Of a stretch of 34,474 nt of DNA, positions 1-17,350 are shown one piece after another (the first letter of the stretch is position 1; each line of letters opens with the position of its first letter). Origin of the DNA: Acidobacteriota bacterium (lineage in GTDB: Bacteria; Acidobacteriota; Terriglobia; Terriglobales; SCQP01); contig JAKAZV010000001.1 of the NCBI GenBank assembly GCA_021826505.1, positions 1 through 34,474 of the forward strand, given 5' to 3'. The translations under genes and the position numbers were made by a program. The notes below the pieces were generated by a model that did not search any database, was not told the origin of the DNA, and worked only from the letters and a program-made list of their open reading frames with translations.

Positions 1-1575
1 ATGAAAGTCAACATTTTCAAGCAGCGTCGCGTTCCGGGCGTTGATGGTGTCGGAGAACATGAGACTATCCAGCGGCGAGACGCGGACCGTCCAATAGGTA
101 CTTTCATCGGTGTGCGGGTTCAGCGCAGTGTAGGGCGTGCCGACGGTCACGGTCTGCACCGCGCCATGAATCGCCAGCCAGGAAACCGGGTGATAATCGA
201 GGCCCAGAATCGGCCATGCCGTTTTGATCCGGTGCGTCAGGGTCGGATCCGCGACTCCCTGGCTTAAAAATTCGATATCATCTTTCATCAGCCGCACGCC
301 CGGGCGGATCTGAACCGATGGCCATGGGTTGAGCAGCAGGCTCAGATCGAGTTGCTGCTGGCCCATGCGCCATTCATTGGTTTGCGTATCGGAATACGGG
401 GTGGTGGTGTCGAACAGCGAGGTTTCTGCCGCGACCGCCGTCGTGTCGATGCGGCTATAGCGGTAGTCAGCGAGAAACGCCGCCCACGGCAGCAGTTGCC
501 AATCCAGGCCCTGCGTGGCGATCTGCTCCGGCGAACGGAGATTGGCCCGTGACGAAAGCGCGACGCTATAAGGCTGCGGATTCGCGCCGGAGGGCAGGAC
601 AGACGCCAAGCCATTGAATTCCATGTCGAGCGCCGCCGGGCCGGTGTAGTGATAGGCCATATAGGATCCGTGCCAGCGCAGTTCCGGAAACAGATCGCCG
701 GAATAGGACGTTTCGAGCAAGGGCGAACTCCGTTGAATCGCTTCGACCCAGGAAGCATGCGAGAGCGGTTGATTGCGCGTCGTCGGATCGTCCACGTTGA
801 TCGACAGTTCCGGCGACTGCAAGTTCACCCCATTGATCGCTTCTTCATAGCGATCAAACCCCAGCATGACGCGGACATTCCAGCTATGATAGGAATCTTC
901 GATTCCAGCCCGGATACGCTGGTCGGATTCATCGATGGGGGCCGACATGAGAAATGGATTGCCACGCGCATAGAATCCCCACGAACCCGGCGCTCCATAG
1001 AAATCCAGCGAGCGCGTGGTTTCATCCCAGCCGCTTCTCAGGCTGCTGTCATAGAGAAACCGCAGGCGCAGACGCCGCGTCAGATGGACCGCAAGATCGA
1101 CGTGGCCCACCTTGCGCACGGTGGAATAGGCATGATTGGGCGTGAGCCCATGAAAGCCGCCGGCGATGGCCGCCATATCGTCCTCGCCCCAGGTGAAATA
1201 ACTCTGGCGAAAGTTCACCCGCAGGTCGTAAACACCCGTCTTGTGAACGGTGAGCTGACCAGTCGGGAATGGATCGTTCCCGATGCCGCTCAGGGTGAAA
1301 GAAAATTGATCCGCCCAGGGATTATTTCCCGTGCGGCTTCTGCCGAACAAATCGAAATCGGATAACCCAAGCCCCTTCCGCAAATCGAGCAAGCTGCGGA
1401 ATACTTCACCGTTACCGTGGGTATCGAGGAAGCGCACCGAGGATCCAAAATCTCCCTGGACGGCAAAATCACTCCATCCCGTTCCGATTTCCGGCGCCTG
1501 CTGGGCCGAAGCCGTGGCTACACACCAGAAGAGCGCCGACAGAAGCAGCCCAATCACTCTCGCCCGTGCCAGCAT
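1..1575 (-). CDS. Outer-membrane beta-barrel protein, putative MtrB/PioB-like porin of a porin-cytochrome conduit (C-terminus truncated by window edge)
   Basis: Reverse-strand frame open from ATG at 1575 to position 1 (525 codons); begins MLARARVIGLLLSALFWCVATASAQQAPEIGTGWSDFAVQGDFGSSVRFLD (signal peptide), strong RBS GGGGAGGAAACTC; alternating hydrophobic/polar strands (e.g. LDLSLLLNPWPSVQIRPGVRLMKDDIEF). Not in ORF track because it has no stop in the window. 54 bp downstream of a decaheme cytochrome gene. Confidence 0.65.
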   Translation of the reverse strand, partial: MLARARVIGLLLSALFWCVATASAQQAPEIGTGWSDFAVQGDFGSSVRFLDTHGNGEVFRSLLDLRKGLGLSDFDLFGRSRTGNNPWADQFSFTLSGIGNDPFPTGQLTVHKTGVYDLRVNFRQSYFTWGEDDMAAIAGGFHGLTPNHAYSTVRKVGHVDLAVHLTRRLRLRFLYDSSLRSGWDETTRSLDFYGAPGSWGFYARGNPFLMSAPIDESDQRIRAGIEDSYHSWNVRVMLGFDRYEEAINGVNLQSPELSINVDDPTTRNQPLSHASWVEAIQRSSPLLETSYSGDLFPELRWHGSYMAYHYTGPAALDMEFNGLASVLPSGANPQPYSVALSSRANLRSPEQIATQGLDWQLLPWAAFLADYRYSRIDTTAVAAETSLFDTTTPYSDTQTNEWRMGQQQLDLSLLLNPWPSVQIRPGVRLMKDDIEFLSQGVADPTLTHRIKTAWPILGLDYHPVSWLAIHGAVQTVTVGTPYTALNPHTDESTYWTVRVSPLDSLMFSDTINARNATLLENVDFH

Positions 1576-1629
1576 GAGTTTCCTCCCCTTCTGGATGCGG
1601 AGCGGTTGGTTGGCCGCTCCGCACCCGGT

Positions 1630-2676
1630 TCACTTCAACAAGTACGGATCGGTATTCGAGCCGTGCACGGCCACGTGGCAGCGCACGCAATCTCCCCGCG
1701 TCTGGAAACCGAGCCGCCCATGCGGCACGTTGTCGGCATGCGGGGCAAGGTGACATTCCAGACACAGGGTCCGGGTATCACGCCGTTTCAATAGCAGCCG
1801 ATTGACGCTGCCGTGAGGTGTGTGACAGGCCAGACAGCCGGTGACGAACGAGGCTGGATGTTCATAGACAAAGGGGCCGCGTTTGCCGGGATGGCATTTA
1901 AGGCATCCGGCCTGACCGATGCGCGCGTTAAAAAGGCCATGTGGGACTCTGCTATGAGGGTTATGGCAGCTGGAACAACTCAGCAATCCCTCAGGCACGC
2001 GATGATGCACAGGCAAGGCAAATTGCGCGCGCACATCGCCGTGACAGGTGTAGCACAGAACCGGCTCGGGCTGTTTCAGCATTCCATCGCGCAGCCAGGT
2101 GAGCTCTTCCGGCCGCTGTGGAACTTCATACAGCATGGCCAATGCCGGCTGCGGCGCAGCATGGATCGGCACAATGTCATCGGTCAGATGCGAGGTGTGG
2201 CACCCGGAGCAATCGACGCCGTTGAGCAGATGGGTCGAGTGTTCAAATCCCGCCTGGCGAGGGCCGCTGGCGTGACAGTAAAGACAATGCTCCGCGTTCT
2301 CGCGCGGCGAGGCATGAAAGCCGAAAATGAGCCGGTTCGCCGCCGCCGTTTTGGCATCGTCGCCATGGGCCGCCCGCTCCGCCCGCGCATGGGCGCGGCC
2401 GGGGCCATGACAGGTTTCGCAGCTCATCAGAGGCTTGCCATTGGGCGCGCGCAGCCGCGCGTGCGGGGTCTTAAGAAACTCCACCACCTCGGCCTTATGA
2501 CAAGACTTGCAATCGCGGATGCTGGCCGATTCGAAGGCGGGAATCGCCGCCGGATGGCGCCAAGCCACCGAGGCGGCATGATGAACGCCCGGCGTGGTTT
2601 GCGCGAAGACAAAGGATGAAAGTGATACCAGGGTTGAGAAGACAAGTCGAAGCGCGAAGCCAGTGGATATTTTCAT
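1630..2676 (-). CDS. Decaheme c-type cytochrome, MtrA/DmsE family
   Basis: Signal peptide MKISTGFALRLVFSTLVSLSSFVFAQ and ten CXXCH motifs (CKSCH, CETCH, CLYCH, CSGCH, CYTCH, CSSCH, CLKCH, CLACH, CLECH, CVRCH); DmsE/MtrA-like segment CLKCHPGKRGPFVYEHPASFVTGCLACHTPHGSVNRLLLK. Confidence 0.93.
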   Translation of the reverse strand: MKISTGFALRLVFSTLVSLSSFVFAQTTPGVHHAASVAWRHPAAIPAFESASIRDCKSCHKAEVVEFLKTPHARLRAPNGKPLMSCETCHGPGRAHARAERAAHGDDAKTAAANRLIFGFHASPRENAEHCLYCHASGPRQAGFEHSTHLLNGVDCSGCHTSHLTDDIVPIHAAPQPALAMLYEVPQRPEELTWLRDGMLKQPEPVLCYTCHGDVRAQFALPVHHRVPEGLLSCSSCHNPHSRVPHGLFNARIGQAGCLKCHPGKRGPFVYEHPASFVTGCLACHTPHGSVNRLLLKRRDTRTLCLECHLAPHADNVPHGRLGFQTRGDCVRCHVAVHGSNTDPYLLK

Positions 2677-2748: not shown

Positions 2749-2769
2749 GCGGCGGCTTTTTCCCGCCGC
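2749..2769. other. Perfect hairpin GCGGCGG-CTTTTTC-CCGCCGC in divergent intergenic region
   Basis: 7-bp perfect arms with 7-nt loop, between the decaheme start (2676) and the cupredoxin/cytochrome start (2947). Confidence 0.5.
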
Positions 2770-2946
2770 ATATTCACCATATCCGGCGTGCCGTGATGAG
2801 CCAATGATTTGTAATATATCTCAGCATGGGGTACGCAAATACTGGTGTGAGCGGCGTCATAGGCGGGTATAACCGGCATCAAAGACTCATCTGCGCCCGC
2901 ATGCTCGGATAGGTATATGCAGACAGTTCCGTCAGAAAGGATAACG

Positions 2947-3879
2947 ATGCGGACTCGTCAGTTGGGGCCAGGTATGCTGCTGCTGGGAATTTTGAGCGCC
3001 GGACTGCCGGCGCAGGTCCGGCTTTCCGGCCGAATCCGGATTCCTCCGCCCGCAACGACCCGCCTGCCGGGCGTGCTGATGGCGCCGGCGGCGCTGCCGG
3101 CGGCGGTGTATTTGCTGCCGGAGCGGCCGACGGCGGCTCTGCCGGGCAGCCAGGATTCATATCTGATACGGGTCGTCTGGAACCACTTTCAACCCGCCCT
3201 GCGGGTGGTGCCGGCCGGCGCGAAGGTGGTATTTGAGAACCAGGGAACCATCAATGTTTCGCTTCAACTGTTGCGGCTGCGCGGGCAGCGGCTGTTCGAG
3301 GGACACTGCGCCATCTGTCATGGCGCCAATGGCGAGGCGATGACCCCGGTCGGCTCCAGTATGCGGCCGCATGCCTTGAATCTGACCGCGCCGGCGATTC
3401 AGGCCAGGAGCGAATCCCAACTGGCGCAAATCGTATGGCACGGCATTGCCGGCAGCGGCATGCCGCGCTGGCATCGCGTGCTCAGCTACGCCGAACTGCG
3501 GCGCATTGTGCACTACGTCAAACAACTGCCGCAACTGGATGCGGGCACCGAGCTGCCGCCGCGGGGCGCGGCCGCGCGCCGGGCGCGCGGCTGGCGGAAT
3601 GAATCGTTGGGCATACTGCGGCCAAACGCAACCCTGGTCCGCCGCTTTCCCAGCCTGGGCATTTATCCGGTGCGCATCGCCGGCCAGAACGGCGAGCGGG
3701 GCTACATCCTGGTGGCGCCGAGCTCCTACTGTAACGTGACCAACGCACAAGGTTATTACCGGCTTCCGCCGGCGCCGCCCGGCCGCTATCAACTGGTGGT
3801 ATGGCATCCCGGCAACCCGGCGGAAACCCGAATCATTGAACTGCATGGTGACAAACAAATAAGTCTGAATCTGCATTGA
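2947..3879 (+). CDS. Secreted cytochrome c domain nested in a cupredoxin-like (methylamine utilization protein-like) domain
   Basis: ATG at 2947 with RBS AGAAAGGATA; signal peptide MRTRQLGPGMLLLGILSAGLPAQ; N part FQPALRVVPAGAKVVFENQGTINVSLQ, heme motif CAICH with distal GMPRW, then LGILRPNATLVRRFPSLGIYPVRIAGQNGERGYILVAPSSYCNVTNAQGYYRLPPAPPGRYQLVVWH. Confidence 0.8.
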   Translation: MRTRQLGPGMLLLGILSAGLPAQVRLSGRIRIPPPATTRLPGVLMAPAALPAAVYLLPERPTAALPGSQDSYLIRVVWNHFQPALRVVPAGAKVVFENQGTINVSLQLLRLRGQRLFEGHCAICHGANGEAMTPVGSSMRPHALNLTAPAIQARSESQLAQIVWHGIAGSGMPRWHRVLSYAELRRIVHYVKQLPQLDAGTELPPRGAAARRARGWRNESLGILRPNATLVRRFPSLGIYPVRIAGQNGERGYILVAPSSYCNVTNAQGYYRLPPAPPGRYQLVVWHPGNPAETRIIELHGDKQISLNLH

Positions 3880-3929
3880 TGTTCCGCTCCGGAAACGGAG
3901 CGGGATCAAGCTCAGGAGGGCCACGATTT

Positions 3930-4304
3930 ATGAATGCTCATTTTCCCAAACGGTTAGGATTCCTGATCACTGTCTCAACTCTACTGATGCTGTGCCTGTG
4001 GTTCGCCCCCATGCTTCCGGCGAGGACTACAGGCGCCGATAGCGCTCAGATTCGCCTCGGCCGAAAAGTATTCATGTCCCGATGCGCAGTCTGTCATAAG
4101 GCGGACGGCACCGGGCAGAGCTATCTCGGTCCCAAAGCCAACCTGCACCGCCGGGTGGTGCAAAAAAAACCTGATGCCAAGCTGGCCGCTTTTATTAAAA
4201 AAGGCTATCCGCCCATGCCGGCCTGGGAAGGGGTGCTGACGCCGGCGCAGCTTCGGGCGGTCATCCGCTTCCTACGGACATTTAAGCCGGCAGGCGGGAA
4301 ATGA
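3930..4304 (+). CDS. Monoheme class I-like cytochrome c
   Basis: ATG at 3930 preceded by CTCAGGAGGG RBS; signal peptide/TM, CAVCH heme motif, YPPMPAW distal Met region and C-terminal helix LTPAQLRAVIRFLRTF. Confidence 0.85.
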   Translation: MNAHFPKRLGFLITVSTLLMLCLWFAPMLPARTTGADSAQIRLGRKVFMSRCAVCHKADGTGQSYLGPKANLHRRVVQKKPDAKLAAFIKKGYPPMPAWEGVLTPAQLRAVIRFLRTFKPAGGK

Positions 4305-4414: not shown

Positions 4415-5191
4415 TCAGGCGTCTTTCAGCATTTGCAATGCGCGCGGTTTAATCAATAGAAAGCCGTTGCCCCGCCGCCGCAGGATGCCTTGCCTGCGCA
4501 GATCAGACAGAATCCGGCTGACGGTTTCGCGCGAGGTGCCAATGCTATCGGCAATGTCCTGCTGAGTCAGCGGAAGATTGACCAGCGTGCCCTGGGGGTT
4601 GTCCTGGCCGTGTTCCAGGGCGTGGGAAAGCAGCAGTTCGGCTAAGCGGGCGCCGACATGACGATGCAACGTCAATATGCGGGTGTGTTCCCAGGATCGC
4701 TGCAACTGCAGGGCGAGAGCCTCGATAATGGTCCGGTAGTTGTTGGGATGGTCGGCTAAAAACGCCAGAAACTGCGCGCGCGGGATGAAGCTGATCTGGC
4801 AGGGCAGCAGAGTTTCCGCGCTGACCGGATAGGGGCTGCCGCTGAGCGAACTGCTGATGCCCAACACCTCGCCCCGGCCGACACGGCGTAAAATTACCGT
4901 GGCGCCTTGCGCGGAATGGGCGAAGGTCTTGATTTCTCCCGAGCAGATCACATAGATGCCGCGCGCCGGCTCACCTTCAAAAAACAGCACCACGCCGCGC
5001 GGATACCAGGCGGTCTGGCGAATCTCGAGCAATTTGGTCAGCTCCGCTTTCTCGAAATGGCCGAGAAAGCAGGTATCGGCGCTGGCGCAACCGTCACAGC
5101 GCGGAATGGTTGAATGGCCGGCTGCCCTGGTAGCAGCAGCGCTCGTTACCTGCGTGCGCTCTGTTGCCCGGGTGATAGGTTTTTGCACCAT
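4415..5191 (-). CDS. Crp/Fnr family transcriptional regulator, FNR-type with probable [4Fe-4S] ligand cysteines
   Basis: N-terminal CDGCASADTC (C-x2-C-x5-C), central LLPCQISF, cNMP-binding-like fold, HTH with SRETVSRILSDLRRQGIL (E..SR recognition helix as in FNR). Confidence 0.88.
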   Translation of the reverse strand: MVQKPITRATERTQVTSAAATRAAGHSTIPRCDGCASADTCFLGHFEKAELTKLLEIRQTAWYPRGVVLFFEGEPARGIYVICSGEIKTFAHSAQGATVILRRVGRGEVLGISSSLSGSPYPVSAETLLPCQISFIPRAQFLAFLADHPNNYRTIIEALALQLQRSWEHTRILTLHRHVGARLAELLLSHALEHGQDNPQGTLVNLPLTQQDIADSIGTSRETVSRILSDLRRQGILRRRGNGFLLIKPRALQMLKDA

Positions 5192-7885: not shown

Positions 7886-10800
7886 TCAATCGGCGAAAGC
7901 GTGGTCGAGCAAAGCCTGCTGTTCTTTCTGGTGGCGGCGGAGCGAGCCGGTCGCGGGGCTGGCCGCTTCCGTCCGTCCGATATATTGAATATTGCCTTTG
8001 TGCAGCGCCGGCCAGCGCTGGGTCACATAATTCCAGGCGCCCATGTTCTCAGGTTCTTCCTGAACCCAGCGATATGCTGCCTCCTGGGGAAATCCAGACA
8101 GGGCGGATTTGAGGCTGGTCTGCGGCCAGGGATAGAGCAGTTCCACCCGCACGATCGCGGTCGTTGAATCGTTGCGTTCCCGGCGCCGGGCAGCGAGTTC
8201 GTAGTAGATTTTGCCGCTGCACAGCAGCACCCGGCGGCAATGGGCATCCAGAACACTCGTTTCGGTTTCACGCAGCACAGGCGCAAATCCCGACTGAATG
8301 AATTCGGGAAGGGAACTCGCCGCGGCAGTTGAGCGCAACAGACTTTTAGGCGTAAAGATCACCAGCGGCCGGCGGGTTTCAGGGGCGGAAGCGCCGGAGA
8401 GCCCCTGGCGGCGCAGAAGATGAAAATACTGGGCCGATGTGGTGCAGTTGGCAATGCGCAGATTGTTTTCCGCGCAGAGTTGTAAAAATCGCTCCGGCCG
8501 GGCGCTTGAATGTTCCGGCCCCTGGCCTTCATAGCCGTGCGGCAAGAGTAAAGTGATGCCGCTGGTGCGGCCCCATTTCGAATAAGCCGCGGCCAGAAAC
8601 TGGTCAATCATGACTTCAGCGCCATTGGCAAAGTCGCCGAACTGGGCCTCCCATAAAACCAGAGCCGTGGGATGAATGGTGGAATAGCCATATTCAAAGC
8701 CGAGAGCGGCTTCTTCCGAAAGCAGGCTGTCGTGGACGGCGAAATCGGCCTGGCGCCCGGGCAGGTGTTCAAGCGGAGTGTACAAATCGCCGCTATGGTA
8801 GTCGGCCAGAGTGAGATGGCGCTGGCTGAAGGTGCCGCGGGCGGTGTCCTGCCCGGTCAACCGGATGGGCACTCCATCGAGGAGCAGACTGCCAAAGGCC
8901 AGCGATTCGGCCAGGGCCCAGTCCACGGCTTGGGCATCGGTCACCGCCCGCGTGCGCTTTTCCAGCCAGGGTTTCAGCTTGGGATGAATGACAAAGCCTG
9001 CGGGCGTCGCAGCCAGGCCGCGGGCAATTTCGCGCAGACGATCCGCCGGCACGGCCGTGACCGGAGCCGCGGATGGCGAAGCATGCGGGGCCGCTAAGCC
9101 GGCGGTGTGTGGCGCCGCGGAAGAGGCCGGGTGCGCGGCGGGACGAGCGTCAAGCTTGTCGCGTTCGGCCGTTAAGATGGCATCCGCTTCCCCGGGCGCC
9201 AGAATTTTTTCGCGCTCCAGTTGTGCGGCATAAATGGCGCGGGGCGTGGGGTGGCTTTCAATATTGCGATAGAGAACCGGCAGGGTCAGGCTGGGATCAT
9301 CGCCTTCATTATGACCGTGGCGGCGATAGCAGACGATATCCACCACGACGTCGCCGTGGAATTCGTTGCGATAGTCGAAGGCCAGATGCAGGCCGCGCGC
9401 GACCGCTTCGGGGTCATCGCCATTGACATGGAAGATGGGCGCCTGCACCATGCGGGCCACGTCGGTGCAGTACAGGCTGGAGCGGGCCGCGCCCGGGGCG
9501 GTGGTAAAGCCAATACGGTTGTTGACGATGATGTGCAGGGTGCCGCCTACGGCATAGCCATCCAGTTGCGACAGGTTCAGGGTCTCCGCGACCACGCCCT
9601 GGCCGGCAAAGGCGGCATCGCCATGAATCAGCACCGGCAGCACGCGGCGGCCCGCCGCGTCATCCAATAATTCCTGGCGCGCTCGCGCCGCGCCTTCCAG
9701 CATGGGATCCACCGCTTCCAGATGGCTTGGGTTGGGCGCCATCCAGAGCCGCATTTCGCGATCCTGGCCGCGGTAAATGCCTTCGGCGCCGAGATGATAT
9801 TTGACGTCGCCCGAGCCCTGCACGCTTTCAGGATCGATATCCTCGAAGCGGGAAAGCATGGCCGCCATGGACTGGCCGATGATATTGACCAGCACATTCA
9901 AACGCCCGCGATGGGCCATGCCAAGCAGCACTTCTTCCATGCCCTCGGAGGCGGCGCGCGCCAGCAGGCCGTCGAGCGCGGGTATCAGGCTGTCGGCGCC
10001 TTCCAGGGAAAAACGCTTATGGCCGATATAGCGCGAATGCAGCAGCCGCTCGAAGGCTTCCGCGGCGGAGAGTTTTTCCAGCAGCCGGCGTTTTTGCGGC
10101 GCGGCCAGCGGCCAATGACCCTGCGCCGGCTCCAGCCGGCGCTGCAGCCAAAGCCGCCGGTCCAGATTTTGAATATGCATGTACTCGCAGGCCAGGGTGC
10201 CGCAGTAGGTGGCGCGCAGGACATTTAAAATGGTCCGCAGTGTCTGCATCGGCGGGCCGGTCTCGGCGGGCTCGCCGGATAGAGAAGTCAGGAATTTACG
10301 GTCGTAATCCCACAGGCTCAGCCCGTAATGGCCGGGATCGAGTTCGGGATGCTCGGGCGCGGCCGTGGCCAGCGGATCCAGTTGCGCCAGCAGATGGCCC
10401 CGCACCCGGTAGGCATGCACAAGCTGCAATACCGCCGCCTGCTTGCGCACGGCTTCAAGATCATGGCCGCCGAGGCCAATGGCCCCCGGGGAGGCGTCAC
10501 GCGACCAGCGTACGGCATGGAAGGGAAGATCGAGCTGGCGGAAGAGGTTCTCGTGAAAATCATCTTCGCCGAGCAGCAAGGCGGAGATGGTGGCCAGGAA
10601 TTCGCCCGATTCGGCGCCCTGCAGAATGCGGTGGTCGTAGGTGCAGGTCAGGCTCATGACCTTGCCCACGCCCAGGGCATGCAGCGTGTCTTCCGGCATG
10701 CCTTCAAAGCCGCTGGGGTATGCCAGTGCGCCGGCGGCGATGATGGCCCCCTGGCCCGGCATCAGACGCGGCACCGAGGCCTGGGTGCCCAGAGTGCCGG

Positions 10801-11530
10801 GATTGGTCAGGGTCATGGTCGCGCCGCGCAAGTCGGCCGGCGCCAACTGGCCCTGCCGGGCGCCTTGAATCAGGCGGTCGGTTTCAGTGACGAAATCGGA
10901 AAAATTTAAAGTTTCGGCCTGATGCAGCACCGGAACCAACAGCGTGCGTCCGCCGCCGCGAGCCGCCACATCCACCGCCAGTCCAAGGTGCACATGCCCT
11001 GGATCGAGGCGGGCCGGCTGACCCTCCCATTCGCCATAGGCGCGATTCATGGCGGGATGCCGCTGCAGGGCCCGTAAAATGGCCCACGCCAGAATATGGG
11101 TCAACGACAGCTTGCGCCCGCGCGGCGCCAGTTGCTGGTTCAGCAAGCGCCGATTCTCCTCGGCCAGCCGCATGGGAATTATGCGCTGGGAAGTCGCGGT
11201 TGGAACCGCCAGACTGGCGGCCATGTTCAGGGCAATACGCGCGGCGGCGCCCCGGAGGGGTTCGGGACGGGCTTCAGCGCCGGGTTCCTGGGGTGATTGA
11301 ATCACGCCCACGCCCGGCGCCGCTCCTACGGCGGACAGGGCCGGTATAGAGCCGGCCTTATGCCCATTGGTCGTCCCGGCCAGGGCTGCTTCAAAAGCCT
11401 CACGCCAGCTTGAGGGCACGGCCTGCGGATTGCTGGAAAAGTCGCGAAACAGCTCTTCGGCAAATCCTTCGTTCGGCCCTAATGCCGCTAAATAGGCGCG
11501 AATGCGATCGTCTAAATTTACGCTTGCCAC
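7886..11530 (-). CDS. kgd: Multifunctional 2-oxoglutarate decarboxylase/dehydrogenase E1 with N-terminal E2-like acyltransferase domain (KGD type)
   Basis: E2-like segment ...LTCTYDHRILQGAESGEFL followed by thiamine-dependent E1 (LLGMAHRGRLNVLVNIIGQ, GDAAFAGQGVVAETLNLSQL, YRRHGHNEGDDPS, LPHGYEGQGPEHSSARPERFLQL). Probable GTG start at 11530 (GTG GCA AGC GTA) after GGAAGG. Confidence 0.92.
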   Translation of the reverse strand: MASVNLDDRIRAYLAALGPNEGFAEELFRDFSSNPQAVPSSWREAFEAALAGTTNGHKAGSIPALSAVGAAPGVGVIQSPQEPGAEARPEPLRGAAARIALNMAASLAVPTATSQRIIPMRLAEENRRLLNQQLAPRGRKLSLTHILAWAILRALQRHPAMNRAYGEWEGQPARLDPGHVHLGLAVDVAARGGGRTLLVPVLHQAETLNFSDFVTETDRLIQGARQGQLAPADLRGATMTLTNPGTLGTQASVPRLMPGQGAIIAAGALAYPSGFEGMPEDTLHALGVGKVMSLTCTYDHRILQGAESGEFLATISALLLGEDDFHENLFRQLDLPFHAVRWSRDASPGAIGLGGHDLEAVRKQAAVLQLVHAYRVRGHLLAQLDPLATAAPEHPELDPGHYGLSLWDYDRKFLTSLSGEPAETGPPMQTLRTILNVLRATYCGTLACEYMHIQNLDRRLWLQRRLEPAQGHWPLAAPQKRRLLEKLSAAEAFERLLHSRYIGHKRFSLEGADSLIPALDGLLARAASEGMEEVLLGMAHRGRLNVLVNIIGQSMAAMLSRFEDIDPESVQGSGDVKYHLGAEGIYRGQDREMRLWMAPNPSHLEAVDPMLEGAARARQELLDDAAGRRVLPVLIHGDAAFAGQGVVAETLNLSQLDGYAVGGTLHIIVNNRIGFTTAPGAARSSLYCTDVARMVQAPIFHVNGDDPEAVARGLHLAFDYRNEFHGDVVVDIVCYRRHGHNEGDDPSLTLPVLYRNIESHPTPRAIYAAQLEREKILAPGEADAILTAERDKLDARPAAHPASSAAPHTAGLAAPHASPSAAPVTAVPADRLREIARGLAATPAGFVIHPKLKPWLEKRTRAVTDAQAVDWALAESLAFGSLLLDGVPIRLTGQDTARGTFSQRHLTLADYHSGDLYTPLEHLPGRQADFAVHDSLLSEEAALGFEYGYSTIHPTALVLWEAQFGDFANGAEVMIDQFLAAAYSKWGRTSGITLLLPHGYEGQGPEHSSARPERFLQLCAENNLRIANCTTSAQYFHLLRRQGLSGASAPETRRPLVIFTPKSLLRSTAAASSLPEFIQSGFAPVLRETETSVLDAHCRRVLLCSGKIYYELAARRRERNDSTTAIVRVELLYPWPQTSLKSALSGFPQEAAYRWVQEEPENMGAWNYVTQRWPALHKGNIQYIGRTEAASPATGSLRRHQKEQQALLDHAFAD

Positions 11531-11657
11531 CCTTCCAGTATAGCGAGGGCGAAGATGTGAAGAAGCGAAGAAGCAGAGTAAAGAATGGGTCGGGCGGGTG
11601 GGTACGATTTGAGTGCGCGCAGAGCAATATCGTCTGGAAGCGATAAAATACAAGCCA

Positions 11658-12284
11658 ATGGCAACGGCGGATTCCCAAACCCTGATCCTGGCGCTGACCG
11701 GCGCCAGCGGCATCGCGCTGGGCCGCATGGCCTTGCAATACCTGGCTGCCGATGCCAGGGTGGGCCATATTTACCTGGTAATTTCCGATCACGGCCGGCG
11801 GGTGATGTGGGAAGAACTGGGCGAGCGTCCCGCCAGCGGCCAATCTCTGCCGGATTTTCTGCTGTGCGGCGGCATCGGACGGGAAAAAATCGAATGTCTC
11901 GATCCGCGCGATATCGGCGCCGCCATCGCCAGCGGCTCTGTTGCCCATCAAGGCATGCTGATTCTGCCCTGCAGCATGGGTACGCTGGCCGCCATATCGC
12001 ACGGATTATCCGATAACCTGATCGAACGCGCGGCCGATGTTTGCCTGAAGGAGCGCCGGCGTCTGGTGCTGGCGATTCGGGAAACTCCGTTCAACCTGAT
12101 CCATCTGCGTAATATGCTGGCCGTAACCGAGGCGGGCGCAACCGTTTTCCCCATCATGCCCGCATTTTACGACCGCGCGGTCACGCCCGAAGACGGCATG
12201 CGGCAGTTTGTGGCGCGGGTGCTGGCACATTTCCAGCTTGACCCGGCCGGGATGTTTCGCTGGCCGGGCGGCGAAGCAAAATGA
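11658..12284 (+). CDS. ubiX: UbiX family flavin prenyltransferase
   Basis: LALTGASGIALGRMAL, LPCSMGTLAAISHGLSDNLIERAADVCLKERRRLVLAIRETPFNLIHLRNMLAVTEAGATVFPIMPAFY. Confidence 0.93.
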   Translation: MATADSQTLILALTGASGIALGRMALQYLAADARVGHIYLVISDHGRRVMWEELGERPASGQSLPDFLLCGGIGREKIECLDPRDIGAAIASGSVAHQGMLILPCSMGTLAAISHGLSDNLIERAADVCLKERRRLVLAIRETPFNLIHLRNMLAVTEAGATVFPIMPAFYDRAVTPEDGMRQFVARVLAHFQLDPAGMFRWPGGEAK

Positions 12285-12305
12285 TGCGATGCGGGTGAAA
12301 CCGCT

Positions 12306-13256
12306 TCAGGGCTTCAGGATGATTTTGCCGTAACTGGCGCGGCTTTCCAGCAGGCGGTGAGCCTCGGCGGCTTCGGCCAGCGGATATACGGCGCCGATCA
12401 CAGGCTGAACCTTTTTACGGCGGGCATATTCCAGCAGTTCGTCCATGGCCATGGAAACCGCTTCCGGCGATTGCAGCAGGCTGCGGAGATGCAGCGCGTG
12501 GACACTCAAGCTGTTGGCAAACAACTGGCCCAGATGCAATTGGCCGGGGTCGCCGCTGAGGGCTCCATAGACGATTAAACGGCCCAGCGGCCGCAGGAGC
12601 TCCAGATCGGCGGCCAGGGTGGCGCCACCGACACTTTCGAGAATAATGTCAATGCCGTCTCCGCCCGACTGCTCGCGCACGGCATCGCGGTAGTTGTAAT
12701 CGGAGCTTTCGATGACGTGCTCCAGGCCGGACTGGCGCAGCCACTCGGCTTTTTCCGCGCTGCTGGTGATGCCGAAAATTTCGGCTCCCATCTGGCGGGC
12801 CAGTTGCGCCGCGGCGGTGCCAACGCCGCCCGCGGCGGCCTGAATCAGCAGCTTTTCATCCGGTTTCAGGTCCGCCATCCAGAGCGCGTAATACGCCGTA
12901 AGATAGGTGACGAGAAAACCCGCCGCCTGTTCGGCGCTGAGCTCGGTGGGGTAGGGAAAAGCGAGAGCGTCGGGCACCAGGGCGTACTCGGCATATCCGC
13001 CCCGCTCGACAATGCCCATAATGCGCTTGCCCTGGTGAGCGCCGGAGACCGCAATGCCGGACACCTCCAGCCCCGGGACAAACGCAGGTTGCGGGCCGCC
13101 GGGATAACGGCCGGTACGCATCATGCAATCGGCGAAGTTGACCCCGATCGCCTCAACTTTGACCAGCCCGAAGCCAGGCTCCGTGGCGGGCGTGGGTGCT
13201 TCGCTATACTTGAGTACTTCGGGACCGCCGTAAGACTCAACTGTGATGACCTTCAT
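12306..13256 (-). CDS. Quinone oxidoreductase / zinc-less MDR family oxidoreductase
   Basis: MKVITVESYGGPEVLKYSE, AAAGGVGTAAAQLARQMGAEIFGITSSAEK Rossmann motif, IDIILESVGGATLAADLELLRPLGRLIVYGALSG. Confidence 0.88.
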   Translation of the reverse strand: MKVITVESYGGPEVLKYSEAPTPATEPGFGLVKVEAIGVNFADCMMRTGRYPGGPQPAFVPGLEVSGIAVSGAHQGKRIMGIVERGGYAEYALVPDALAFPYPTELSAEQAAGFLVTYLTAYYALWMADLKPDEKLLIQAAAGGVGTAAAQLARQMGAEIFGITSSAEKAEWLRQSGLEHVIESSDYNYRDAVREQSGGDGIDIILESVGGATLAADLELLRPLGRLIVYGALSGDPGQLHLGQLFANSLSVHALHLRSLLQSPEAVSMAMDELLEYARRKKVQPVIGAVYPLAEAAEAHRLLESRASYGKIILKP

Positions 13257-13487
13257 GCCGCGCCTTTCCTGAAACCGAATGTTTTCAACCACAAACGTTC
13301 ATTGTAAGCTGGGGTTCGCGATGGAAGCAAAGGAATCCTGCATGAGCCTGGCGGAAAAAGCTCAAAAGCCCCCGCGGGCACGGGTTTGCTTATGGAGCTG
13401 AAACCCATTCCGACACCGGCGGATGCGGGCGCCATCCGGGCCGGCGTGTCCCTTGCGCCTAACTCGCCAACCCGACGGAAAAAAGTC

Positions 13488-13877
13488 ATGATTTTTTTGT
13501 TGATTCTCATTGCCGTGCTGCTGGAGGCTTCGGCGCAGCTTTTATATAAAGCCGGAGTCAACCAGCTCCCCCCTCCCTCGGCGCCGCTTTGGCATTTGCC
13601 CGCGCTCTGGGACTTTACCTGGAGCGCGCTGGGAAACTGGCGCGTGCTGCTGGGAATCGGGCTATATATACCTGAAGTGATTCTTTGGTGGGCGATTTTA
13701 TCCAAAGTGGAGGTGAGCTATGCTTTTCCGCTCACCAGCATGAGCTATGTGCTGCTTTTGTTGATGGCGAAGTTCTTTTTGCACGAAGACATCCCTCTGG
13801 AGCGCTGGCTGGGCGCTCTGGCGGTGGTGACGGGTGTGTTTCTGATTACCCGTTCCGCCGGCGCCAGCCGGCATTAG
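13488..13877 (+). CDS. Small EamA/SMR-like membrane transporter
   Basis: Four predicted TM helices; MIFLLILIAVLLEASAQLLYKAGV...EVSYAFPLTSMSYVLLLLMAKFFLHEDIPLERWLGALAVVTGVFLI. ORF extends upstream to 13386; start uncertain. Confidence 0.7.
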   Translation: MIFLLILIAVLLEASAQLLYKAGVNQLPPPSAPLWHLPALWDFTWSALGNWRVLLGIGLYIPEVILWWAILSKVEVSYAFPLTSMSYVLLLLMAKFFLHEDIPLERWLGALAVVTGVFLITRSAGASRH

Positions 13878-13926
13878 GATCCGTAATTTTCCCGGCTGAA
13901 TAGCTGAAATGGGTTAGCGTAAAGGT

Positions 13927-15114
13927 ATGCAAAAGTCCGGCTTTCGAAGGTGGCTGGTGATCATTTGCCTGAGCCTGGGGTGGGCATTGGGTTGCGTTTC
14001 ATTGTGCCAGGGACAGGAAGCCTATCCAAGCTGGCAGACGCAGGCTCCGCCTCTGACTCCTACCCCAAAGCCAGATACCGGCGCAACACCCCAGCTCATT
14101 GGCCCGCCGACGCAGACCATCCGCGCGGCCGTGAACCTGGTGGATATTCCCGTGCTGGTGCTGAATAAGCGGGGCAATGCGGAATTAGGTTTACAGGCGG
14201 GAAATTTCAGAGTGGAGGACGATGGCCATGTGCAGAAGCTGGTGGCCTTCGATAACGAAGCCCGTCCGGTATCCATCGCCATCATCATTGACACCACCGA
14301 ATATGCGGCTGTGGAACAGGCCAAACGCTCCGCCTTGCTGCTGGCGAATATGGTGGTGGGCGCAAAGGGCCGGGCCGCGATTTTTGTGGCCGGAAACGAT
14401 ACCCGACAGGTATTGAGTTTTACCGGACGCAAACGGGCCATCATTGAAACTTTGCGATCGCTGAAGGTTGGACCTAAAGGCAACGACATTACCGAAGCCC
14501 TGACGCTGGCGGTGCTGCGGATTTCTCATCAGCCGATCGCGCGCCAGCGCGCAATTCTGGTGATCAGCCGGCAGAATCCTTCGGGCAATGAATATGCCAA
14601 GGCGATCGTGCAGGCCTCCATGTCGAATGCGACACCGGTGTTTAGAATCAAGCCCAACCGGTACAAAGCGCATCGCGTGAACCCGTATTCGCCCTCGGAA
14701 CATGGCACCGGCCCGGGATCAAGCCGGGTCATACATCCAGCTTCTCCCATTGGCCGGAATGGCGCACCGGAGGCGTGTTCCTCGTGCAATGCCAATTTTG
14801 GCCCCACCATTGAACTGGCTGCCAAGGGCGCCAAAGCCGGGGTGATGACCATTTTGGGGCATTTCATCAAGCTGCGCGGCTGGAGCTACGCCTATGCCAC
14901 CGGCGGTTTGAGCTATAACGCCGGCAGCAACCGCGATTTTGACCGGAAACTGGCGAGCATCGGCAATGCATTACGGGCGTTTTATCAGCTCTACTACACT
15001 CCCGTGCTGGGTCCGGTGGCTGAAGTGCATCTGGTGAAGGTGAAAGTTTATGGAGCCGGCAAAGTCCGGCAGATCGCCTATCGGCATACCTATGTGGGCG
15101 TCCCCGGCACGTGA
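13927..15114 (+). CDS. VWFA domain-containing protein (acidobacterial VWFA-related type)
   Basis: Signal peptide; IRAAVNLVDIPVLVLNKRGNAELGLQAGNFRVEDDGHVQKLVAFDNEARPVSIAIIIDTTEY. Confidence 0.8.
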   Translation: MQKSGFRRWLVIICLSLGWALGCVSLCQGQEAYPSWQTQAPPLTPTPKPDTGATPQLIGPPTQTIRAAVNLVDIPVLVLNKRGNAELGLQAGNFRVEDDGHVQKLVAFDNEARPVSIAIIIDTTEYAAVEQAKRSALLLANMVVGAKGRAAIFVAGNDTRQVLSFTGRKRAIIETLRSLKVGPKGNDITEALTLAVLRISHQPIARQRAILVISRQNPSGNEYAKAIVQASMSNATPVFRIKPNRYKAHRVNPYSPSEHGTGPGSSRVIHPASPIGRNGAPEACSSCNANFGPTIELAAKGAKAGVMTILGHFIKLRGWSYAYATGGLSYNAGSNRDFDRKLASIGNALRAFYQLYYTPVLGPVAEVHLVKVKVYGAGKVRQIAYRHTYVGVPGT

Positions 15115-15122
15115 AAAGATCC

Positions 15123-15242
15123 CGCTCAGGGATCAGCATCGCATAGCGGCGTTGGAACCCGCTCGGCAATCCTCAAGTACATTCGTGTGCATTCCGGTTG
15201 CTTCGCTGTTTCCGCCTGGCTCTGCTCGCTTCTCTCTGAGCG
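15123..15242. repeat. Dispersed intergenic repeat, copy A (full length)
   Basis: Ends CGCTCAG...CTGAGCG; shares GGGATxAGCATCGCATAGCxGCGTTG, ATCCTC and TTTCCGCCTGGCTCTGCTxGCTTCTC with copy C at 29527-29644; ends complementary. Confidence 0.8.
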
Positions 15243-15261
15243 CGCAACATCATTCGACGGC

Positions 15262-15297
15262 GGAGGGCCGGGGCCTGCCAGACAACCCCGGCCTTCC
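15262..15297 (+). terminator. Strong hairpin GGAGGGCCGGGG-N12-CCCCGGCCTTCC (possible terminator-like structure, no U tract)
   Basis: 12-bp stem with one G.T; lies between the VWFA gene and ubiE. Confidence 0.35.
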
Positions 15298-15305
15298 CAC
15301 TCGAT

Positions 15306-16136
15306 ATGGCTTTAATATTCTTGATGGTGGTCCCGTGGGCCGCCGCTCAACGGAATGAGGAAGTGACCGAACCGAGATCTGATCTATTGTGCAAGCCAGC
15401 CGGTTCGCGTCCTCTGGGCGTGGCTGAAAATGATGTCGCCAGCCACGTACGCTCCATGTTCAGCGCCGTGGCGCCGCGCTATGACCGGGCGAATCACCTG
15501 CTCTCGGCGGCGACCGATATCTACTGGCGGCATCAGGCGGCGCGGCGCATCGCGCGCGAACTGCCGGCCCGGGCGAAGGCGCTTGATATCTGCTGCGGCA
15601 CGGGTGATATGAGCTTCGCCCTCGCCCGGCGGCTGCGCGCCGGGCAGACGTTATGGGCCGCCGATTTCAGCCATGCCATGCTGCTCGAAGCTCAGCGCAA
15701 AGCCGTCCGGCGCAAACAAGCCGGTCCGCTGGGCTGGATCGAGGCCGACGCCCTGCAATTGCCATGGCGCGACGACTCGCTGGATGCGGTGCTGACCGGG
15801 TACGGCTTTCGCAACCTGGCCGGCTATGAGGCGGGGCTGCGCGAATTTTACCGCGTGCTCAAGCCCGGCGGGAGGCTCTATATTCTGGAATTCTTCCGGC
15901 CCGAACTGCCGGTGCTGAAACCGCTGTATGAGTGGTACTTCAGCCATATTCTGCCCCGGCTCGGACATTGGCTGACCGGCCGGCGAGCGGCGTATGAGTA
16001 TTTGCCACGCTCGGTGGCCCACTTTGCCACGGTGCGGGAGCTCGCAGCCTGGATGCGCCAGGCCGGCTTTGCCGATGTGGGTTTTCGCCGCCTGACCGGC
16101 GGCATCACGGCGCTGCATTGGGGGGTGAAGCAGTGA
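15306..16136 (+). CDS. ubiE: UbiE/MenG-type demethylmenaquinone/ubiquinone methyltransferase (true start may be GTG 15420)
   Basis: MFSAVAPRYDRANHLLSAATDIYWRHQAAR, ALDICCGTGDMSFALARR, DAVLTGYGFRNLAGYEAGLREFYRVLKPGGRLYILEFFRP. Confidence 0.92.
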   Translation: MALIFLMVVPWAAAQRNEEVTEPRSDLLCKPAGSRPLGVAENDVASHVRSMFSAVAPRYDRANHLLSAATDIYWRHQAARRIARELPARAKALDICCGTGDMSFALARRLRAGQTLWAADFSHAMLLEAQRKAVRRKQAGPLGWIEADALQLPWRDDSLDAVLTGYGFRNLAGYEAGLREFYRVLKPGGRLYILEFFRPELPVLKPLYEWYFSHILPRLGHWLTGRRAAYEYLPRSVAHFATVRELAAWMRQAGFADVGFRRLTGGITALHWGVKQ

Positions 16137-16222
16137 AGATAATTAGAAACAATGCGTTACGATCTATTGTTTAAAGTAATTAATTAGAAGCAGCTATTGA
16201 ACGGGATTGCAGAGCAAGAGAA

Positions 16223-17350
16223 TTACAGCTCGGCCTGGCCATTCATTTGTTTAGAATTCTGCGAGAGCTGGATTATTTCCCGCACCGCCTCCAGCGCGGC
16301 CGCCGCGGGCACGTTGCGCACGATTTCGACCGTTCCGATGTCGCGGGGCAGAACGAAATGTAAAACCCCGGAGCGCATTTTTTTATCGGTTGCGGTATGG
16401 GCCAGCACGGCGCTGGCGGTAGCCGGAATCGAAGGCAGCGGCCGCGCGGTTTTGAGGATGGTCTGGATGAGAGTGCGGGCGGTTTCAGCCCGCAGCCGGC
16501 GCAGGCGCACGGCCAAGTGGCAGGCGGCGATCATGCCCCAGGCGACGGCCTCGCCGTGGAGGAAATGGCGGTATTCCGTCGTGGCTTCGAGGGCATGGCC
16601 GAAGGTATGGCCAAAGTTCAGGATGCGGCGCAGATCGGATTCTTTTTCATCCGCGGCCACGATTTCCGCTTTGGCGCGCACGCAATCGGCGATCACCGGA
16701 TCGAGCACGGCCGGCTCGCGGCGGCGGATTTCCTCGCCGCGCTGTTCAAACAGTTGATACAGTCCAGGCTGGCGGATGATGCCGTATTTGATGGCTTCGC
16801 TCAGGCCGGAACGGTATTCGCGCTCGGGCAGGGTGGTCAGGGCCTCGGGATCAATCAGCACCGCGCGCGGATGATGAAAGGCGCCAGCCAGGTTTTTTCC
16901 GGTTTTTAAATTGACTCCGGTTTTGCCGCCGATGGCGCTGTCAATCATTGCCACCAAAGTGGTCGGCAGTTGCAGCACGGAAATGCCGCGCATATAGATG
17001 GCGGCCAAAAAACCCGCCACATCACCCACCACGCCGCCTCCCAGGGCCAGAATGACGGTTCCGCGGTCGGCGCCGAGTTGCGTCAGCCGAACGGCTAAGT
17101 CCTCAACCGTGGATAAATTCTTGTAACGCTCGCCATCACGCATTTCCAGCACGTGAAAGCTTACGCCTTCCTGGCGCAGGCTGGCTTCCACGGCAGCGCC
17201 ACAGTGTTTGCGGATGGGCGCGGTGGTGACGATGACCGCCCGGTTGCCTTCCTCGACGTATTTTTTGGCCAGCGTGCCGGCATGCCGCAAGGCGCCCCGC
17301 TCGATCAGGCAGGTATAGGGGTTGGCTAACTCGACGGTGATCTTTTTCAC
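16223..17350 (-). CDS. aroB: 3-dehydroquinate synthase
   Basis: LALGGGVVGDVAGFLAAIYMRGISVLQLPTTLVAMIDSAIGGKTGVNLKTGKNLAGAFHHPRAVLID, LNFGHTFGHALEATTEYRHFLHGEAVAWGM. Confidence 0.97.
   Translation of the reverse strand: MKKITVELANPYTCLIERGALRHAGTLAKKYVEEGNRAVIVTTAPIRKHCGAAVEASLRQEGVSFHVLEMRDGERYKNLSTVEDLAVRLTQLGADRGTVILALGGGVVGDVAGFLAAIYMRGISVLQLPTTLVAMIDSAIGGKTGVNLKTGKNLAGAFHHPRAVLIDPEALTTLPEREYRSGLSEAIKYGIIRQPGLYQLFEQRGEEIRRREPAVLDPVIADCVRAKAEIVAADEKESDLRRILNFGHTFGHALEATTEYRHFLHGEAVAWGMIAACHLAVRLRRLRAETARTLIQTILKTARPLPSIPATASAVLAHTATDKKMRSGVLHFVLPRDIGTVEIVRNVPAAAALEAVREIIQLSQNSKQMNGQAEL

Follow-up and report, generated by a model that had tools for sequence, protein, structure and literature searches.

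Acidobacteriota are dominant in many soils and at acidic sites rich in iron, and their role in iron cycling has mostly been guessed from isolated cytochrome genes. The stretch of DNA analyzed here, referred to as the window (34,474 nucleotides), forms the start of contig C40 in a 2.75-Mb metagenome-assembled genome (MAG; completeness 89.6%) of an Acidobacteriota bacterium. At its left edge, a multiheme cytochrome gene adjoins the gene of a barrel-like protein that runs off the contig. Do these genes belong to a conduit carrying electrons across the outer membrane, which proteins would complete it, and in which direction would the electrons move? The two genes are:

1630 to 2676, minus strand: secreted decaheme c-type cytochrome of the DmsE/MtrA family (ten CXXCH motifs, TIGR03508, 6r2q_A match)
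1 to 1575, minus strand: MtrB-like porin, N-terminal 525 aa; the rest lies on contig C33 (L003 6479–6922)

The cytochrome is 348 aa long, with CXXCH at residues 56, 86, 131, 156, 208, 234, 258, 281, 305 and 330. Composition-preserving shuffles held 0.09 such motifs on average and at most 2, and the count of exactly ten given for this minus-strand protein in a preliminary description is confirmed. The DmsE/MtrA profile check suggested there came out positive, with 198.1 bits against TIGR03508 (DmsE family; cut-off 192.2). The best PDB match is 6r2q_A, MtrA of the Mtr complex (E 3.3e-23), in an alignment spanning about 140 C-terminal residues. By the curated cut-off the protein is a DmsE/MtrA family member with predicted heme attachment. 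No second full-length decaheme of this kind turned up in the genome, and a genome-wide search for paired-CXXCH cytochromes returned this protein alone. The window branch is long in both the porin and the decaheme trees and its position is without resolution; we therefore make no claim of transfer. At a related locus, L040, a decaheme-type cytochrome (8274–9833) carries 11 CXXCH motifs and, following its first heme, an extra inserted class I cytochrome c domain.

The top-scoring family model of the decaheme is DmsE, and a molybdopterin protein gene lies about 6.5 kb to the left. Both would fit a DmsEF-like conduit feeding an extracellular terminal reductase for DMSO, iodate or another oxyanion. 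We consider this very improbable: the molybdopterin protein is a QrcB-like complex member downstream of a Cyc2-like gene, not DmsA, and TIGR03508 models MtrA/DmsE-type decahemes in general.

The decaheme and barrel genes are separated by 54 bp (1576–1629), as first noted, and each protein begins with a Sec-type signal (by inspection), in keeping with the secretion proposed for both. The barrel frame had been described as open to the window edge. It is indeed open throughout 1–1575 and continues on C33 (7,056 bp), whose last 134 bp are identical to window positions 1–134 at 133 of 134 positions. The frame stays open through the junction and yields a porin of 672 aa with a C-terminal Phe, joined across two contigs (C40 window and C33) of a binned MAG. 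Given this overlap and the frame continuing across the join, the open end at the window edge is an assembly break. Two further cytochrome genes follow on C33:

L003 6073–6489 (C33), same strand as the porin and downstream of it: monoheme cytochrome c
L003 5348–6025 (C33), same strand as the porin: NapC/NirT-type tetraheme cytochrome c

An outer-surface partner had been anticipated past position 1; the genes there instead encode a periplasmic monoheme cytochrome c and an inner-membrane NapC-type tetraheme. The former is a class I cytochrome c of 138 aa, membrane-anchored or secreted. One invariant Met follows the heme motif in this protein and five relatives, and His/Met ligation of its heme is therefore expected. 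The NapC/NirT-type protein (225 aa) scores 44 bits against PF03264 (cut-off 24.1) and falls under the narrower NapC, NrfH and TorC cut-offs. Its hemes are predicted from three CXXCH motifs and one CX4CH. The first motif reads CXXCHxM and is kept in three proteins, from this genome and two relatives.

Two related loci, L037 (YP4.bin42) and L039 (JOPF029), carry decaheme, porin, monoheme c and NapC-type genes in identical order on single contigs. This conserved order supports the view that the four genes form an operon and that the join is real. Were the join a chimera, the monoheme and NapC-type partners would lie outside this operon. The contigs do come from a binned metagenome and their 134-bp overlap contains one mismatch, yet the reading frame is uninterrupted at the junction, both relatives show the same order within one contig, and the Acs–element–Cyc2 order of C33 recurs in a same-genus genome. 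A chimera is thus extremely improbable.

The identity of the porin is less direct. Profile searches with Pfam and NCBIfam gave nothing above cut-off for the window porin. Against PF11854 (MtrB_PioB) it reached 14.7 bits, below the cut-off of 23, and 3 of 13 porin relatives gave matches, weak ones, with a best E of 5e-7. The profile of the porin family did match canonical acidobacterial PF11854 porins in hhalign (probability 99%, E 5e-18, 542 columns), so that the MtrB/PioB assignment proposed for this barrel fails at the family cut-off and holds at the level of profile comparison. A second acidobacterial family of decaheme-associated porins matched at 99.9%, while two Cyc2-like proteins, the sole negative control, gave 1.3%. 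Searching PDB sequences with the profile of the porin family gave no true match. The AlphaFold model of the L037 homolog is a barrel of about 26 strands at medium confidence (pLDDT 61), and its best PDB match is 6r2q_B, MtrB (TM 0.51/0.53, E 3e-8). TonB receptors ranked below it with TM values of at most 0.44; the lead of MtrB is small by E-value. Neither a TonB receptor nor OprO, either of which had been named as a possible better match for the barrel, displaced MtrB as the top fold match. As described earlier, the barrel has no CXXC near its N-terminus: the joined porin has a single Cys, in the signal peptide, and the CXXC of Shewanella-type MtrB is absent from it and from all 13 related porins.

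By these profiles, the porin is related to MtrB/PioB and by cut-off outside PF11854. Because the margin between MtrB and TonB receptors is small, the proposed relation rests on the agreement of neighborhood, profile and fold, with modest model confidence. The score under the PF11854 cut-off and the weak family matches might point to an unrelated porin or TonB receptor beside a soluble periplasmic decaheme. This is very improbable, since decaheme–porin adjacency is conserved among the relatives and MtrB is matched by profile as well as by fold. An MtrAB/PioAB-like conduit, as originally suggested, remains the best-supported reading, drawing on the DmsE cut-off, the MtrA and MtrB matches and the PF11854-porin profile. 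Of 297 Acidobacteriota genomes sampled, 67 encode canonical PF11854 porins; none was found in this one. Annotation pipelines relying on PF11854 will overlook the present family.

Taken together, the four genes likely encode a complete Mto-like electron conduit from the quinone pool to the outside, situated beside a Cyc2-like operon. We infer that the decaheme forms a complex with the porin, in which it would act as a wire inside the roughly 26-strand barrel and across the outer membrane. The class I monoheme cytochrome would shuttle electrons through the periplasm, and the NapC/NirT-type tetraheme would exchange them with the quinone pool. Electrons could run along this chain, from quinone pool to NapC-type tetraheme, monoheme c, decaheme in porin and outside, in either direction. 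No multiheme cytochrome of the cell surface was found, so the outer step is likely a direct contact between the outermost heme and Fe(II) or minerals. Electron exchange between this organism and extracellular iron or minerals is thus probable.

Relatives attach other inner-membrane modules to the same decaheme–porin core. The module after the core is NapC-type in L037, L039 and this genome. In L038 the core is followed by Rieske and cytochrome b/c proteins, and in L040 by a nine-heme protein with a cytochrome b561 domain, in a CbcL/MtoC-like layout, as well as a five-heme protein with a NapC domain. In L035 (8758–10798) a diheme cytochrome and a COX1-superfamily protein follow, possibly NorCB; this arrangement suggests a conduit wired directly to a terminal reductase. 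Near the L038 conduit (10934–16650, genome G004) lie genes for a five-heme protein, a further protein and a TAT-type protein, possibly a Qrc/ACIII-like complex such as that found beside cyc2. The diversity of modules on one core suggests that the decaheme–porin conduit is probably bidirectional hardware whose direction is set by its partner; the CbcL-like or Rieske/cytochrome b partners of the relatives allow either direction. In L045 the gene of a more distant porin homolog comes directly after those of three decahemes: one is MtrA-like, and the other two are large and contain MtrC/MtrF domains (E 1e-53 and 1e-49). These MtrC-like genes beside the homolog tie the porin family to outer-membrane and extracellular electron transfer.

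Upstream of the decaheme, the window contains a short copied element followed by three further genes:

2749 to 2859, minus strand: 112-bp element upstream of the decaheme, a copy of the Cyc2-like upstream region on C33 (L003 2489–2600)
2917 to 3879, plus strand: divergent gene for a cupredoxin-like/CarboxypepD_reg protein with an inserted monoheme cytochrome c domain
3876 to 4304, plus strand: secreted class I monoheme cytochrome c (PF13442 48.5 bits, cut-off 27)
4415 to 5191, minus strand: CRP/FNR-family regulator; two family mates have a homolog (61–62%) close to their Cyc2-like gene

The two copies of the element are 76% identical (E 1e-15) and are the only ones in the genome. G001, a genome of the same genus, also has the element ahead of its cyc2 gene (L131 3067–3187; 84% and 71%). 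Rfam gave nothing over threshold at the element. A small ORF was considered here and rejected by eye, as a stop and an indel interrupt the frame in the C33 copy; the element is hence more likely non-coding, and it is a probable shared promoter or leader.

In the protein at 2917–3879, the inserted cytochrome c domain replaces the copper-site region, leaving no recognizable Cu ligands; a homolog with copper ligands adjoins the second Cyc2-like gene of this genome, on contig C94. Four family mates have orthologs (about 60%). The gene divergent from cyc2 in G003, G007 and G010 is the ortholog of 2917–3879, whereas in this genome that gene is divergent from the decaheme instead. The true start codon of the monoheme cytochrome at 3876–4304, a likely periplasmic partner, may be further in. 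We regard the CRP/FNR protein as a candidate regulator of the island.

The Cyc2-like gene itself lies on C33, about 4 kb further left, and encodes a putative cytochrome-porin of 444 aa with one N-terminal CXXCH (AVPSYSRQTGFPCSTCHTTPPEL). The C94 gene product is a 61% identical paralog (AVPSYARQTGLPCSRCH). Keffer et al. define Cyc2 by AXPXFAR[Q/K][T/Y] before the CXXCH and PXL after it (PMC8406198). The corresponding residues are AVPSYSRQT (C33) and AVPSYARQT (C94), two and one differences from the strict motif. The remaining features agree with the definition: a single CXXCH, PXL, a length of 444–470 aa (at least 365) and a homolog with the strict motif, a Caballeronia protein with exactly ALPAFARQT that the C33 protein matches at 38% over 95% of the length. 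AlphaFold modeling of the Cyc2-like protein, on an alignment of two sequences only, gave a pLDDT of 26. For divergent, Cluster 3-type Cyc2 homologs, function is uncertain (PMC8406198). In G001 and family mates, the Cyc2-like gene is first in an operon whose other members encode a five-heme cytochrome and molybdopterin, Fe-S and NrfD subunits of Qrc/ACIII-like type. The Qrc equivalogs are the best models for these proteins, though scores stay below the equivalog cut-offs (QrcA 74.9/180 and, in the same-genus genome, QrcB 147/440 and QrcC 225/400). Beside the C94 gene lies a cupredoxin (PF00127, CTLHPGM). The same contig carries DabA/DabB-like inorganic-carbon uptake genes (L050 16379–20000, by inspection).

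Because the region upstream of the decaheme is a copy of that upstream of the Cyc2-like gene, the arrangement suggests that the two operons are co-regulated, and it predicts joint induction of the Cyc2-like and Mto-like systems. The simplest reading would be an insertion that brought in the conduit cluster together with an ADP-forming acyl-CoA synthetase gene, parted the Cyc2-like operon from its divergent cytochrome-cupredoxin partner, and was accompanied by duplication of the promoter region. More fully, in this acidobacterial genus the duplicated Cyc2 promoter would place a soluble-iron oxidase and a mineral-contacting MtoAB-like conduit under one control in an iron- or mineral-oxidation island, with the decaheme–porin core of the relatives serving as a module for different inner-membrane partners. 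We put this reading of insertion, shared control and modular core forward tentatively, as quite possible and short of probable.

Porin–cytochrome conduits are known to be reversible. We find it moderately probable that electrons are taken up from Fe(II) or reduced minerals and passed inward to quinone and oxidases. This is favored by the Cyc2-like neighbors under the shared upstream region, the cupredoxin beside the second Cyc2-like gene, the two heme-copper oxidases encoded in the genome, the lack of any paired-CXXCH cytochrome except the decaheme, and a gene set that equals the Sideroxydans Mto pathway (PMC13390432). Conduit reversibility, the uncertain function of divergent Cyc2 and the lack of RuBisCO, which was searched for in the genome and not found, weaken the case; the last leaves Calvin-cycle lithoautotrophy without support. 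The same conduit might run outward, its NapC-type protein oxidizing quinol and passing electrons to Fe(III), humics or an electrode by Shewanella Mtr logic. In favor of this are the retained CXXCHxM, a feature that in NrfH and CymA has been associated with the oxidation of menaquinol (PMC10654088), the MtrC-like surface cytochromes beside the same core in L045, and an earlier proposal of acidobacterial decahemes as signs of Fe reduction (PMC3669403). Against it stand the lack of a paired-CXXCH surface cytochrome in this genome, the upstream element common to the Cyc2-like oxidase operon and the decaheme, and the two heme-copper oxidases. We judge outward flow somewhat unlikely and retain uptake as the preferred direction.

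Among known systems, the Mto cluster of Sideroxydans lithotrophicus ES-1 (mtoA, mtoB, mtoD, imoA/cymA and pmcA; slit_2494–2498; PMC13390432) is the closest, with a pathway MtoAB–MtoD/PmcA–ImoA. Both clusters unite a decaheme, a porin, a monoheme c and an inner-membrane tetraheme of the NapC/NirT family, both lack MtrC, and ES-1 also carries Cyc2. Unlike the Mto cluster, the present one has an Acidobacteriota host, a porin under the PF11854 cut-off, a single monoheme gene with expected His/Met ligation where MtoD is bis-His, one CX4CH site in the tetraheme and an upstream region in common with the Cyc2-like gene.

Shewanella MtrCAB (PDB 6R2Q) and the acidobacterial MtrCAB Group 5 likewise pair an MtrA-type decaheme with an MtrB-fold porin; here, in contrast, MtrC is missing and the porin is without CXXC. 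For Group 5, no inner-membrane quinone oxidoreductase was reported near the cluster (PMC8805035), whereas a NapC-type gene belongs to the cluster here. PioABC of Rhodopseudomonas palustris TIE-1 shares the decaheme–porin pair without a surface cytochrome. It differs in that monoheme c and a NapC-type tetraheme here replace the HiPIP PioC, and the 348-aa decaheme lacks the long N-terminal extension of PioA. The C33 gene and its C94 paralog resemble Cyc2 fused cytochrome-porins (PMC8406198) in their one N-terminal CXXCH, PXL and length, and differ in their deviating motifs and a barrel that is putative. Porin–cytochrome complexes in Acidobacteria were already known (PMC7399161, PMC8805035), and CymA homologs have been reported absent from Acidobacteria (PMC6295460). 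Set against the open-licence PMC literature, Mto-, Pio- and Mtr-type conduits are known, and an acidobacterial cluster with its own NapC-type protein is new. Such a self-contained quinone-to-outside cluster offers a testable unit for iron cycling by Acidobacteriota.
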